A stretch of 63,597 bases of DNA from Bacilli bacterium (GTDB lineage: Bacteria; Bacillota_I; Bacilli_A; ML615J-28; CAG-698): NCBI GenBank assembly GCA_028691515.1, contig JAQUZE010000009.1, forward strand, positions 1-63,597, written 5' to 3'. Shown here one piece after another: positions 42,968-48,850 of the stretch. The notes under the pieces were generated by a model that searched no databases, was not told the origin of the DNA, and saw nothing but the letters and a program-made list of their open reading frames with translations. The first letter of the stretch is position 1. The number at the start of each line of letters is the position of its first letter. The position numbers and the translations under genes were made by a program.

Positions 42968-43404
42968 TGAGAGTCTTGATTCAAAGAGTAAATAATGCAA
43001 AATGCGAAGTTAATAATAAAATAATTGGAGAAATCAAAGGGGGATTATTAGTTTTTGTTGGTTTTAGTGAAACTGATACATTGATAGAAATTAAAAAAAT
43101 GGCAAAAAAAATTGTAAATTTACGTATATTTAATGATAATGATGGTAAAATGAATAAAAGTCTTCAAGATATAGGTGGAAAGATACTTTCTATTTCTCAA
43201 TTTACTCTTTATGCTAACACATTAAAAGGTAATAGGCCGTCATTTATAGATGCAATGGAACCTAAAAAAGCAAATGAAATGTATGATTTATTTAATAAAG
43301 AGTTAGAAAAATATAATATTTTAGTTGAGACAGGATTGTTTGGCGAAGAAATGAATATTTCATTAACAAACTGTGGTCCTGTTACAATTTCTCTAGAGTT
43401 TTAA
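42967..43404 (+). CDS. dtd: D-aminoacyl-tRNA deacylase
   Basis: Releases D-amino acids (and glycine misplaced on tRNA-Ala) from tRNA. The 145-residue product has the invariant ISQFTLYA and the cis-Pro motif NCGPVTI near the C-terminus, starting MRVLIQRV. It is translationally coupled to rel (TAATG) and closes the apt-rel-dtd operon at a terminator. Confidence 0.97.
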   Translation: MRVLIQRVNNAKCEVNNKIIGEIKGGLLVFVGFSETDTLIEIKKMAKKIVNLRIFNDNDGKMNKSLQDIGGKILSISQFTLYANTLKGNRPSFIDAMEPKKANEMYDLFNKELEKYNILVETGLFGEEMNISLTNCGPVTISLEF

Positions 43405-43431
43405 AAAAGATTGAATTTCAATCTTTTTTTT
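43402..43431 (+). terminator. Intrinsic terminator after dtd
   Basis: AAAAAAGATTG and CAATCTTTTTTT pair around AATTT. Confidence 0.87.
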
Positions 43432-43491: not shown

Positions 43492-43520
43492 TTAACAATT
43501 TAATGTTATTTTGGTATAAT
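43492..43520 (+). promoter_or_regulatory. Promoter of the TPR/GGDEF-EAL-like and HEPN-like gene pair
   Basis: TTAACA (43492-43497) and TATAAT (43515-43520), spacer 17 bp, 24 bp before the ATG of the large gene. Confidence 0.78.
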
Positions 43521-43544
43521 GTAATTACAGTTGGAGGTTAAGTT

Positions 43545-46500
43545 ATGACAATTACAGATAGGTATCAAGAATTATTAGATAAAGAATTAACAATAGATAA
43601 TCTTAATGAATTAGAAGCTTTAGTCATTGATGCTAAAAAAGCTAAAGAAACAAGATATAGTTATCTTGTAACTTTAGAAATTGTTGATCTTTTCCTTTCT
43701 AACAATGATTTAAATAGAGCATTTGATTTAATTAATAAAATTATCAATAATTTTGAAATAAAAAAATTTCCAGATTTATATGTCAGTTTTTTAGAACAGA
43801 TGATTTATGTTTGTATTAATAAGCAAAACTATAAGTCAGCTTACAGGTTTGCTTTAATAAAAAGAAATTATATTGATGAAAACGATAATGAAGTAGTAAA
43901 CAGATGGTATTTAGAAATGTCTTACATTTTTGCAGAAATGAATCAACCTGAGAAATCATTAATTAATTTAAAAGCTATATTATTAAATAATCCTACCAAA
44001 GAGCTCAAATCTTTAGTTCTTTCAAATCTTGCAAAGATTTATATTGATCAAAAAGATGTTGAGTTGGCAAAAGAAACAATTAGTAGATGTTTAAATTTAG
44101 TTGATGAATTAAATGATATTGAAGGTGAAAAATATATTAACTATTTGAATGCTAAATTATATGTTTTAGAAGAAAACTATAAAATGGCAAAAAAACAATT
44201 TGCTGAAATTTTTTATGGACTAACCTCATTAAGTGATAACCAACTAGGAATAGGCAATGAATATTTATCATTACTATTAGATGTTGATGATGTATCTACA
44301 GCAAAAAAATTTATTAGTCAATTTGAGAATAGTTATTTGAAATCGACAGATAAAATAAATTTAAAAGTTTTTTATACTAATAAATTAAGAACGTTAATTT
44401 TACTTAATAATTCTAAAAAAAATGAATATCTTTTACTAATTAATCAAATTGATGCTTTAAATCAAATAATTACAGAAGAAAACGATAATTTATTTAATCA
44501 AATTAACGAAGATGAAAAATTTTTAGAAGCAAGTGAAAAAAATAATAAATCATTAACTAAAATAGAAAAATCAATTTTATTAAGTGAAACATTTTTAAAC
44601 AGCAATTTATTAAGAGATAATTTGATTTCATTTTTTAATAATTTAAGTGAAATTATTGAATTTTATAGTTCTTTAATTGTTGTTTTAAATAAAGGAAGCA
44701 TGGATTCATTACCTGACTTTTTTAAAAATGATAATGAAATATTAACTTACAATTTTAAGAAAAATAGATTATATGAACGAAAATTATCATTTAGTGATTT
44801 AAATGATACAGTGGTAGAAAAATTAATTGCCCAAAACACAGAAATAGTTTTATCACAAGACGAAATGAGCCATTATGAACCAATAATAAAAGGAAAAAAC
44901 TATTTCGATAGTGGGTTTTTATCGCTAAATGCAATACCTTTAAATTATTTAAATGATATGTTTGGTGTTTTGATTATTGCATCAAAAACTGAAAGCTTAT
45001 TAGAAAATGAAAATATAATGATTTTAAAAATTGCAAGTAATTTAATTTCTTCAAATTTAATTTCTTTGTTTTTTAAAGAAAATATGAATTATCATTCTAA
45101 TTTGTTGAATTTAGCAATTGAAGGTTTACAAGAAGGGATTTTCTATTATTCACCTAATAAAGAGCAATTATTACTTGATGAAAAAATGCAAAAATTTTTA
45201 AATGTCCATAGTAAATATTACAATTTAGAACAATATCGAGAATTAATAGATTCTTCTTATAAAAATGAATATAATAAGAAGCTTTCTTCAATAAAAGAAG
45301 AACAGTCATATGAAATAGTATATAAATTAAATTTAGATGAAAAATCTTATTTATTGAAAGAAATTGGTAGACCATATTTTAATAATAATAATGAGTTAAT
45401 TTTATATGTTGGCACTGTTACTACTTTAAAAGAACATTCTTATGAAACTTTAAAAAGCTTTAAAGATGGTATTTTTAATCATACTGATTATTTAAATAGA
45501 ATTAGTTTTGAAAAAGAGAAATTATTTAATATAGAGTATAAGTTTACTTTAATAAAATTAAGAATTACAAATTTGCGCAATTATGATTATCAAATTGATT
45601 TACAAAATTACATTATTGAATATATTTATAAATTGTTAGAAAACTATGAACATAACAATGTATATTTACTGGATAACTTCGATTTTATGATTTTTAGTTC
45701 AAATACAGATCAAAGATCTTTAGAAAAAATTTTAAGAGAATTGATTGTATTAATTCAAGAAGGAATTAAATATAAAGAAAGAGTAGTTGAATTACTACCA
45801 CAATTTACTTACCTTCGTTATCCTAAAGATGACAATAACATCGATAATGCTGTTGATTTGTTAAATAATATCACTAATATTAATCAAAAAATTATTAGTT
45901 TTGATTCAACGACCGCAAAAGATTATAAAAATAGTGTTGTTATTAAAAAAATTATTGAAAAAGCTATTGAAAGAAATACATTAGAGTTACTTTTTATCAA
46001 ATTAAAAAGTAATGAATTGATATATGAGGTAAGACCTAATATCTTAGGTTTAACTTATTTGGATAATCCTTTTGATTATATTGAAGAAAAAACTACTGTT
46101 AATTTTGAAATGTTAATGTTTGAGACTTTATATAATAATATTAAAAATTGGGATATTAATTACATGATTAATTTAAGTAATTTCACTCTTTTAAATATTG
46201 AAAATAAATTAATTTTAAATAAATTGTATAATGAAAAAATAATTATTTGCATTAGAGATTATTCTTATAATATTATGAATAACATTATTGAGTTAAAAAA
46301 ATTAGGATTTAGAATTTTCCTCAACTATTTTGTTTTTGATAAATTAACAATAAATGAATATATTAGTCTAAATATTGATGGTATTTATTTCACTAAATCT
46401 CTCGTTGGCAACGAGAGAAAAATGGCTTTAAGTTTATGTAAACTTATGAATTATCCAATATTTGCTCATTATGAATTACCTGATTATGATAATTTAATAA

Positions 46501-46556
46501 CTAGAAGTGAAGATGTAATTTCTTTAAAGGAAATAAATAATGTATTTAATAAATAA
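43545..46556 (+). CDS. Large signalling-type protein: TPR, GAF-like, PAS-like, degenerate GGDEF and EAL-like domains
   Basis: A 1003-residue soluble protein with no signal peptide or membrane segment. By eye the order is helical TPR-like repeats (about 1-330), a GAF-like domain (about 340-515), a PAS-like domain (about 520-640), a GGDEF-like fold (about 644-795) and an EAL-like fold (about 798-1000). The catalytic motifs are lost: DNFDF (710-714) sits where GGDEF is expected, before FMIF; EVR (828-830) sits at the EAL position; the DDFG loop reads NYFV before DKLTINEYISLNIDGIYF, a stretch that otherwise keeps the EAL fold spacing. So a ligand-sensing, enzymatically dead role is likely. Domain calls are by pattern, not search. 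It overlaps the following gene by 17 bases and is flanked by a promoter and terminator of its own. Confidence 0.72.
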   Translation: MTITDRYQELLDKELTIDNLNELEALVIDAKKAKETRYSYLVTLEIVDLFLSNNDLNRAFDLINKIINNFEIKKFPDLYVSFLEQMIYVCINKQNYKSAYRFALIKRNYIDENDNEVVNRWYLEMSYIFAEMNQPEKSLINLKAILLNNPTKELKSLVLSNLAKIYIDQKDVELAKETISRCLNLVDELNDIEGEKYINYLNAKLYVLEENYKMAKKQFAEIFYGLTSLSDNQLGIGNEYLSLLLDVDDVSTAKKFISQFENSYLKSTDKINLKVFYTNKLRTLILLNNSKKNEYLLLINQIDALNQIITEENDNLFNQINEDEKFLEASEKNNKSLTKIEKSILLSETFLNSNLLRDNLISFFNNLSEIIEFYSSLIVVLNKGSMDSLPDFFKNDNEILTYNFKKNRLYERKLSFSDLNDTVVEKLIAQNTEIVLSQDEMSHYEPIIKGKNYFDSGFLSLNAIPLNYLNDMFGVLIIASKTESLLENENIMILKIASNLISSNLISLFFKENMNYHSNLLNLAIEGLQEGIFYYSPNKEQLLLDEKMQKFLNVHSKYYNLEQYRELIDSSYKNEYNKKLSSIKEEQSYEIVYKLNLDEKSYLLKEIGRPYFNNNNELILYVGTVTTLKEHSYETLKSFKDGIFNHTDYLNRISFEKEKLFNIEYKFTLIKLRITNLRNYDYQIDLQNYIIEYIYKLLENYEHNNVYLLDNFDFMIFSSNTDQRSLEKILRELIVLIQEGIKYKERVVELLPQFTYLRYPKDDNNIDNAVDLLNNITNINQKIISFDSTTAKDYKNSVVIKKIIEKAIERNTLELLFIKLKSNELIYEVRPNILGLTYLDNPFDYIEEKTTVNFEMLMFETLYNNIKNWDINYMINLSNFTLLNIENKLILNKLYNEKIIICIRDYSYNIMNNIIELKKLGFRIFLNYFVFDKLTINEYISLNIDGIYFTKSLVGNERKMALSLCKLMNYPIFAHYELPDYDNLITRSEDVISLKEINNVFNK

Positions 46557-47652
46557 TAACAATAAAATTCTTGATGAATTACTACTTAAATTACAAAATG
46601 AAGAAGAGTTATTTCAAGATGAATTTCAAAAAAATATGGGAATTGTCTCTATTCATACATTAGTAAATGTTAATTATATTATTGAGGAATACTTAAATAA
46701 TTATCAAGATAATAATTCTAATGGTAAAAAAATGATTTTAATTTTTGGGTTATTACAAGGTTTATTTGCAGGTATTGATTCACTTTATAGCTTAGGTAAA
46801 GCTCTTGATATTAATAAATTATTAATAAATTTAAATCAAAATAAAACTCTTAAAAATATTAAAAGAATTAGAAATGATGTTGTTGGACATCCAAGTTATC
46901 GATATTATAATAATAAATCAATTGGTTATTGTTCAATGGATGTTGACAGAATTACAAGTTCAAATATAGTATATTATTGTTATACTGATGAAAATAATGA
47001 ATCTCTTCAAAAGAATAAAACAGAAGTTAATATGATTGATGTCATTAATAATTATTTTAAAGAATGTAATCAAATTATTGAAAGCACTTTAAGATTTATT
47101 GATATTAAGAAAACAATACCTGATATTTGTTTGTTAGATGAAGTTGTTTTATTATTTAGAAAATTTCAAAAAAATATTAAGGATGATAAATCTTTAATTC
47201 AAGTTAGAGAGATTTATACTAAATTACTTAATTTGCAACATAATAGTAATGATAGAGTTATATGGAGAATAGATAATATCTTATATATGTTTCAGCTTGA
47301 TAGCAATGAGTTTGTTAATCATCTTATTAATTTAGAATTAAAAAAATTATATGAATTATTTTATATTTTAGAAAAACAAATTAATAATAATGTTAAGCAT
47401 ACTAAATTATATTTTTATGGATCAGATATTATGAATAAACTAAAAAGAAAAATCAAAAAATTCACAAAATATAATAAAGATATTTATACTGATACAGAAA
47501 ATACATTATTTTATAAATTGTTTAAAGATTTGATTAGAATGACTAAAAATGATGAAAAATATAATAAATTATCTAATTGGTTAAATAAAATTTATATAAA
47601 TAATGATAAAATAATGTTATACGCAGTAGGATCATTTTTAAAAGCAAATTAA
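46540..47652 (+). CDS. HEPN-motif protein, partner of the GGDEF/EAL-like protein
   Basis: A 370-residue mostly helical, Asn/Lys/Ile-rich protein. I do not recognise the family as a whole, but LKNIKRIRNDVVGHPSYR contains RNDVVGH at 111-117, a match to the RN-x4-H signature of HEPN domains, many of which are RNases in toxin-antitoxin and abortive-infection systems and some of which only bind nucleotides. The N-terminal helix bundle around it supports HEPN; the remainder is helical and unassigned. The ATG (with AAAGGA) lies inside the preceding gene, giving a 17-base overlap, so the two proteins are made together. No terminator follows before the next promoter at 47656. Confidence 0.65.
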   Translation: MYLINNNNKILDELLLKLQNEEELFQDEFQKNMGIVSIHTLVNVNYIIEEYLNNYQDNNSNGKKMILIFGLLQGLFAGIDSLYSLGKALDINKLLINLNQNKTLKNIKRIRNDVVGHPSYRYYNNKSIGYCSMDVDRITSSNIVYYCYTDENNESLQKNKTEVNMIDVINNYFKECNQIIESTLRFIDIKKTIPDICLLDEVVLLFRKFQKNIKDDKSLIQVREIYTKLLNLQHNSNDRVIWRIDNILYMFQLDSNEFVNHLINLELKKLYELFYILEKQINNNVKHTKLYFYGSDIMNKLKRKIKKFTKYNKDIYTDTENTLFYKLFKDLIRMTKNDEKYNKLSNWLNKIYINNDKIMLYAVGSFLKAN

Positions 47653-47655
47653 TGT

Positions 47656-47683
47656 TTGAAAATTGTTCAATTTATGATATAAT
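47656..47683 (+). promoter_or_regulatory. Promoter of the DUF1189-like gene
   Basis: TTGAAA (47656-47661) and TATAAT (47678-47683), spacer 16 bp. Confidence 0.72.
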
Positions 47684-47710
47684 ATTTAAAATATAAAAGG
47701 AGTGATCAAC

Positions 47711-48850
47711 TTGTTTTTTCGAAATATATTAAATTTTTTAAAGTCACTTGTACTGCCAGTTAAAATGGTAAAATATCGTTATATGTCTGTGCTACTAGGT
47801 ATAATTTTATTTATACTTTCAGCAATTTTACTTACTATTCCTGTTGGCACTTATTATAAAGAAAATAGCTATAAATTAATTGAAGAGCGTAATATTATTG
47901 GACTTAGAGATTTATTACAAGCTCCTTCAAATGAAGAAAGTCTTGTTTTTCAAAAACTATCTGAAATAAAAGATGCAGGATTTAAAGTTGAATATAATGA
48001 AACAGTTAAAAACTATCAGTTGACTTATAGAGTTGATGATATTATTCAAGAAGAACATCGCTCATTATATGAATTTAGTTACTTAAATGAAGAAGAACAA
48101 AATGTAAATGTGCATATTATTGTAGATATTTTTAATCTTGAAAGAGATGAAAATTTAGAAGGAAATGAAAAAGAAAAAGTTTTGCCACCGACAAAAATTA
48201 TTAGTGAAGAAGATATTAAGGATAACTATCAATTCATTAATTATGATAGTTTGTCTGAGGCAGAACAACAAGAATTAATAGGTTCTTATTATGTAAGAAT
48301 TAATAAACTTGATAATAGTGAAAATATTCATTTTAAACCTTCTATTGATAACAATCATATAGTTGTCATTTTAGGAACTGATTCTTTGTTTTATAGTTAT
48401 CATAATGTTATTAAAGAAAACGAAGAGTATATTGATAATCCAAATATTTCAACAGCAAAAATTTTTTGGTCTATTGATTATAGTTTTAATGCAAATGAAA
48501 TGATTAATTATAATGCTAAAACATCATTAGATAATTTTGCAAGATTAATATCTAAAGGTTTTGCAGCACAACTATCTTTAGTTACACAATTTTCAATATT
48601 TCTTTATGTATTTTTATTTCCAATGATTATAGTTTTAATGGTATTTATTTTGTTTAGAAAATCAGGTAGATTACAAACATTAAAAGAATATTTTAATATT
48701 GCAGCAATTAGTACAATAGTCCCAGTTTTAATTACGTTTATTGTAAGTTGGTTTTACTTTGAAGCATATTCATTTTATGTTTTTGTATTTGCTACATATT
48801 ATTTATTAATGATTTTAAAAATTAATACAGTTAAAGAAATTTTAGATTAA
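47711..48850 (+). CDS. DUF1189-like membrane protein
   Basis: A 379-residue membrane protein. It has one N-terminal transmembrane helix (about 25-47), a large, Glu/Asp/Asn-rich probably extracytoplasmic domain of ~230 residues, and three or four closely spaced C-terminal helices (about 290-375). That topology fits the DUF1189 family, but no signature motif is decisive. The role is unknown. I choose TTG 47711, 8 bases after AAGGAG; GTG 47702 overlaps the ribosome-binding site. It is a single-gene unit with its own promoter and terminator. Confidence 0.72.
   Translation: MFFRNILNFLKSLVLPVKMVKYRYMSVLLGIILFILSAILLTIPVGTYYKENSYKLIEERNIIGLRDLLQAPSNEESLVFQKLSEIKDAGFKVEYNETVKNYQLTYRVDDIIQEEHRSLYEFSYLNEEEQNVNVHIIVDIFNLERDENLEGNEKEKVLPPTKIISEEDIKDNYQFINYDSLSEAEQQELIGSYYVRINKLDNSENIHFKPSIDNNHIVVILGTDSLFYSYHNVIKENEEYIDNPNISTAKIFWSIDYSFNANEMINYNAKTSLDNFARLISKGFAAQLSLVTQFSIFLYVFLFPMIIVLMVFILFRKSGRLQTLKEYFNIAAISTIVPVLITFIVSWFYFEAYSFYVFVFATYYLLMILKINTVKEILD

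Follow-up and report, generated by a model that had tools for sequence, protein, structure and literature searches.

The DNA analysed here (the window) is a 63,597-nt stretch of contig JAQUZE010000009.1 from a member of the Bacilli (assembly GCA_028691515.1). It harbors two overlapping genes that encode a protein of 1003 residues with sensory domains, here called the sensor, and a protein of 370 residues with a HEPN-like motif, here called the HEPN protein. The original prediction, made from the sequence alone, had placed two open reading frames with an overlap of 17 nt at this locus, and both are indeed present. The locus is built up as follows:

43403 to 43429, forward strand: terminator-like hairpin with a T-run, end of the upstream relA-dtd unit (sequence and fold)
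43492 to 43520, forward strand: promoter-like site TTAACA-17-TATAAT with TG before the −10 element (11 of 12 matches)
43533 to 43537, forward strand: Shine-Dalgarno sequence GGAGG, 7 nt before the ATG of the sensor (sequence)
43545 to 46556, forward strand: open reading frame of the sensor, 1003 residues
46540 to 47652, forward strand: open reading frame of the HEPN-like protein, 370 residues, with the 17-nt overlap
47656 to 47683, forward strand: promoter-like site of the next gene, TTGAAA-16-TATAAT, TG-extended (promoter scan)

The hairpin behind dtd has a computed folding energy of −9.6 kcal/mol (z = −3.58) and was missed by a G+C-based terminator scan; the promoter-like site of the sensor gene stands just after it. 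A promoter of its own had been predicted for the unit. A strong promoter-like site is there, but the scan as a whole gave 64 sites compared to 56 ± 8 in shuffled sequences, i.e. no excess. For the HEPN gene, AAAGGA, which resembles a ribosome-binding site, is found inside the end of the sensor gene. Since a separate promoter-like site precedes the next gene, the unit looks like an operon that, judged from these elements, probably comprises the two genes. Their G+C contents are 0.21 (sensor) and 0.19 (HEPN), at a window mean of 0.26.

The sensor has the domain order TPR, coiled coil, GAF, PAS, pseudo-GGDEF and pseudo-EAL:

43545 to 44405, forward strand: TPR superhelix, residues 1-287 (model; Pfam TPR in relatives; TPR fold matches in the PDB, LGN)
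44418 to 44585, forward strand: long helix or coiled coil, residues 292-347 (model)
44610 to 45002, forward strand: GAF domain, residues 356-486 (model; the aligned region of relative L154 is Pfam GAF_2, 1.9e-10)
44754 to 44780, forward strand: GAF motif FKKNRLYER, residues 404-412 (alignment across families)
45006 to 45116, forward strand: signalling helix, residues 488-524 (model)
45129 to 45425, forward strand: PAS domain, residues 529-627 (model; PAS_3, 4.8e-6 in relatives)
45480 to 45899, forward strand: pseudo-GGDEF domain, residues 646-785, with DNFDF at 710-714 (alignment, profile, Pfam, fold search)
45906 to 46553, forward strand: pseudo-EAL domain, residues 788-1003 (788-999 in the model), with a shortened C terminus (alignment, profile, Pfam, fold search)

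In the window sensor itself Pfam finds only traces of these domains (EAL E = 0.05, TPR 0.05). In a relative from family f10 (L130), EAL (1.7e-9) and GGDEF (1.5e-6) are both above the curated cut-offs, and over 21 members of the sensor family EAL was found in 13, GGDEF in 11, PAS_3 in four and TPR in several. A profile of the family matched DosP (7e-19), FimX (4e-15), PA0861 and MorA in the PDB over the GGDEF-EAL part, and a PDB fold search with the AlphaFold model returned DosP, PA0861, LapD and TPR proteins. The model has a predicted local distance difference test score (pLDDT) of 82 and a predicted template modelling score (pTM) of 0.37, and due to the latter the packing of the domains is undefined. 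Judged by profile homology and model, the sensor has GGDEF and EAL domains. The reading of the protein as TPR, GAF and PAS modules followed by GGDEF- and EAL-like folds is thus borne out by Pfam in the relatives and by the DosP and FimX profile matches, and the structure check suggested along with it, model plus fold search, gave the GGDEF/EAL fold.

Both domains have lost their catalytic motifs. Aligned to L154, a relative from family f8 that keeps SGDEF and DDFG and has the Pfam architecture GAF-PAS-GGDEF-EAL, the window sensor has DNFDF (710-714) in place of GGDEF, EVR (828-830) in place of EAL and NYFV in place of DDFG, exactly the dead motifs and positions that had been predicted; in addition, the EAL barrel lacks its final part. 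This is not a peculiarity of the window: none of 29 paired sensors from four families keeps any of the GGDEF, EAL and DDFG motifs, and the catalytic motifs of an active diguanylate cyclase or cyclic di-GMP (c-di-GMP) phosphodiesterase are lacking in all 29. The strongest conservation across families is instead in the GAF domain, in the motif YKKxRLY[ED][KR], of which R408 and Y410 are invariant in 21 sequences.

The second protein has the following features:

46621 to 47115, forward strand: HEPN-like four-helix core, residues 28-192, with β-strands at residues 130-164 between helices 3 and 4 (model)
46870 to 46893, forward strand: RNDVVGHP motif, residues 111-118, at the end of helix 3 (29 of 29 homologues; model)
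47131 to 47643, forward strand: all-helical C-terminal region, residues 198-368, without a named family (model; Pfam)

In HEPN ribonucleases (RNases) an Rx4-6H motif ends helix 3, a polar residue follows the arginine, and helix 2 carries an acidic residue (PMC3710099). The predicted RNDVVGH is found at residues 111-117, and RND[VI]VGHP is conserved in 24 of 24 aligned homologues as well as in 29 of 29 of the paired set; also invariant in the 24 are Q73, F76, D80, L82, Y83, K93, N99, N101, R121 and Y145. The model (pLDDT 85, pTM 0.83), which was built from 5 sequences only and is of low confidence at residues 118-122, has helices at 28-54, 61-88 and 102-116, strands at 130-164, a helix at 165-192 and then an all-helical second half. 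The motif stands at the end of helix 102-116 with a polar residue following the arginine, and the invariant D80 lies in helix 61-88; it is an aspartate, not the usual Ex3[KR], and was assigned by its helix position. From motif and model, the 370-residue protein is probably a HEPN-type RNase.

The pairing of the two genes extends well beyond the window. Tallies made by hand from tables for 395 genomes of the class revealed that, outside the family of the window (f1), 45 genomes have the HEPN gene, 46 have the full-length sensor and 44 have both; the exceptions are G359 (HEPN gene only; a genome in 380 contigs), G317 and G062 (both sensor only). In all 26 f10 and f15 genomes with both genes (21 and 5, respectively) the two are adjacent on the same strand, usually with a 4-nt overlap. 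Within f1, the sensor is a core gene (25 of 28 genomes), and the HEPN gene, present in six genomes, is directly downstream of it in all six. The usual f1 locus is apt-relA-dtd-sensor-membrane protein-nusB-xseA, whereas in f10, f15 and f21 the sensor gene is near Ham1 and phosphoesterase genes and not near relA. Since the HEPN gene is beside the sensor gene in f1, f10 and f15, the two adjoin at two unrelated loci. The gene trees of both proteins recover identical family groups and mostly agree in the order within them, with one f10 subclade placed differently, and their pairwise distances correlate (0.90 for all pairs, 0.87 within families). Both genes are under purifying selection, with ratios of nonsynonymous to synonymous substitution rates (dN/dS) of 0.03-0.19 in close pairs with usable dS, values that are rough because dS comes close to 1 or exceeds it. 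Among 392 genomes of the phylum, no homologue of the HEPN protein was found beyond the class, and viral contigs and phages gave none either. The pairing of sensor and HEPN protein is real and conserved across several families of Bacilli.

Some observations around these loci should be mentioned. A search of genome contigs for sensor peptides gave no match with a single sensor sequence and 24 loci with a sensor alignment. In G188 (L144/L188), a single-contig f15 genome, sensor and HEPN gene are both split by frame breaks while the open reading frames just upstream look intact, which is either joint decay or assembly error. At 47702-48850 the window encodes a membrane-type protein without a Pfam family that follows the sensor or HEPN gene in almost all f1 genomes and in G037 of family f2, and is duplicated side by side in G007 and G026; relatives show a weak Yip1 signal. 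It is tempting to speculate that it is a second partner of the sensor. At the apt-relA-dtd locus of G037 (L155:5364-7079), a 571-residue protein that lacks TPR is similar to the sensor over its GAF-PAS part and has a weak EAL match; no HEPN gene is at that locus.

How far do these data support a sensor-gated RNase, in which a non-enzymatic sensor controls a HEPN-type RNase? We give this idea about an even chance, and several findings weigh against it. A Foldseek search with the whole 370-residue model against PDB and BFVD gave no significant match, and neither Pfam nor NCBIfam nor PADLOC has a HEPN family for the protein; the non-significant Foldseek matches, many of them to helical membrane proteins, were not used as evidence. 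With no named match from these searches by fold and by family, membership in HEPN is argued from the motif and the topology. Of the predicted HEPN fold, therefore, the helix order stands, and so does the motif, which a confident model places where HEPN proteins have it, whereas fold search and Pfam name no HEPN. In the 18 f21 genomes with both genes these are on different contigs, i.e. unlinked, and the HEPN gene is usually beside bipA rather than beside the sensor gene. In f1, the HEPN gene is missing from 19 of the 25 sensor-bearing genomes; the sensor must therefore be able to function in its absence, which calls for a second role or another partner. The expectation of a conserved pair thus holds outside f1 (44 of 45 and 44 of 46) but not inside f1, where the sensor is mostly alone. 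Finally, part of the correlation of distances is shared ancestry.

The sensor could be a receptor of the LapD or FimX kind that relays c-di-GMP to the HEPN protein, and both the pseudo-GGDEF-EAL fold and the true GGDEF and EAL enzymes found in most f1 genomes are in line with this. However, the 29 sensors lack GGDEF, EAL and DDFG, the EAL domain in f1 is shortened at its C terminus, and G008 (98% complete) and G009, which have sensor and HEPN gene, gave no match to a GGDEF or EAL enzyme; G015 gave no EAL match and one weak GGDEF match. From these three genomes c-di-GMP is unlikely to be a required signal and was downgraded as a candidate, and a receptor of this kind is improbable. The original prediction had assigned the reading of a nucleotide to the dead cyclic-nucleotide-type module; this part is not upheld, with the conserved site in the GAF domain and two genomes keeping the pair without a detectable GGDEF/EAL enzyme. 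The neighbors relA, apt, dtd, Ham1 and bipA hint, weakly, at stress that concerns nucleotides and translation. In 9 of 10 inspected f21 loci (L127, L132, L142, L143, L156-L160), the HEPN gene directly precedes bipA/typA, the gene of a translation GTPase, a possible hint to the ribosome.

The overlapping layout is also that of a toxin-antitoxin module, with the HEPN protein as toxin and the large protein as antitoxin; the HEPN toxins of HEPN-MNT pairs are RNases (PMC7641770), and the distribution in f1 is as expected if a toxin was lost and its partner retained. We consider this quite unlikely: the sensor is single-copy at a position fixed family-wide, the trees look vertical, and the distribution does not look mobile, with one weak plasmid match and none in viral contigs or phages. 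Moreover, the supposed antitoxin is a 1000-residue protein with sensory domains that 19 f1 genomes retain although they have no HEPN gene, and the genes are unlinked in f21. The fixed chromosomal loci, vertical trees and one copy per genome also make an anti-phage abortive-infection system very improbable, although HEPN RNases are common as defence effectors (PMC3710099); PADLOC gave no convincing match for the pair. The 370-residue protein could instead lack RNase activity and serve, in a structural complex with the sensor, as a HEPN-like scaffold or as an adaptor that binds RNA. The lack of a named family or fold match, the long helical C-terminal half with no assigned use and the existence of non-catalytic HEPN domains (PMC3710099) would agree with this; but the R, N and H of the motif, like D80, do not vary even between very divergent homologues, as catalytic sites behave, and we regard it as unlikely.

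For the sensor-gated RNase, the data show the domains, the lost motifs, the HEPN motif with its topology and the co-inherited pairing, and from these we infer an RNase activity, a contact between the two proteins, the sign of the control, a signal and a target RNA, which might come together as follows. The TPR-GAF-PAS-pseudo-GGDEF-pseudo-EAL protein would serve as a scaffold and as a sensor without enzymatic activity. Some ligand or state of stress would be read most likely in the GAF/PAS part around YKKxRLYE/DK and change the shape of the sensor, and the pseudo-GGDEF-EAL part would pass the signal on. By direct contact the sensor would hold or release the HEPN-type RNase, whose gene follows and would be translated in a coupled manner, and this RNase in turn would cut RNA and slow down translation or growth.

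Some known systems resemble parts of this scheme. In the Csr system, the degenerate GGDEF-EAL protein CsrD is tied to RNase E and RNA turnover, as is proposed for the pair here, but CsrD has no HEPN partner, and we claim homology for the shared fold only. LapD and FimX share the pseudo-GGDEF-EAL fold; they bind c-di-GMP, which is not expected here, and they have no TPR and another partner. In some hosts of the pair no c-di-GMP enzymes were detected. HEPN-MNT (HepT/MntA) is likewise a two-gene operon with a HEPN protein, whereas the pair here has a multidomain sensor and no nucleotidyltransferase. A weak link leads to the hypothetical protein WP_011783375.1 from Marinobacter nauticus plasmid pMAQU01, which shares the HEPN core GILQALF..DAL...RNxxxGHPT (hhalign probability 95%, E = 2e-8) but has an unrelated C-terminal half and adjoins other hypothetical genes, not a sensor. 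The C-terminal part of this protein (L192:2462-3412) is related to a protein common on enterobacterial plasmids. The CARF-HEPN RNases Csm6/Csx1 of type III CRISPR couple a ligand-sensing part to a HEPN RNase, as predicted here, and Csx1 has a β-hairpin insert at the same point of the HEPN fold, between helices 3 and 4 (PMC3710099); in contrast, no CARF was seen here, the sensor is a separate 1000-residue pseudo-GGDEF-EAL protein, and the locus is not a CRISPR locus.

In the literature on HEPN together with GGDEF/EAL or c-di-GMP, which covers CRISPR Csm6, CARF proteins and AbiF, we found no description of the sensor-HEPN pair. Dead GGDEF-EAL proteins are common, most of them still lack an explanation, and the regulated HEPN RNases known so far belong mostly to defence or toxin systems. 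Conservation of the pair across families of Bacilli points to an undescribed stress switch. Tentatively, and at somewhat less than even chances, it may be a c-di-GMP-independent system of several Bacilli families in which a HEPN RNase, member of a new family, is gated by a dead GGDEF-EAL protein with TPR, GAF and PAS domains, so that a metabolic or translation-stress signal is linked to RNA cleavage. With the pair, a sensor with dead GGDEF-EAL domains would have a partner open to testing, and a HEPN-type family new to Pfam and PADLOC would be added; its vertical inheritance and largely single copy suggest a housekeeping stress switch.

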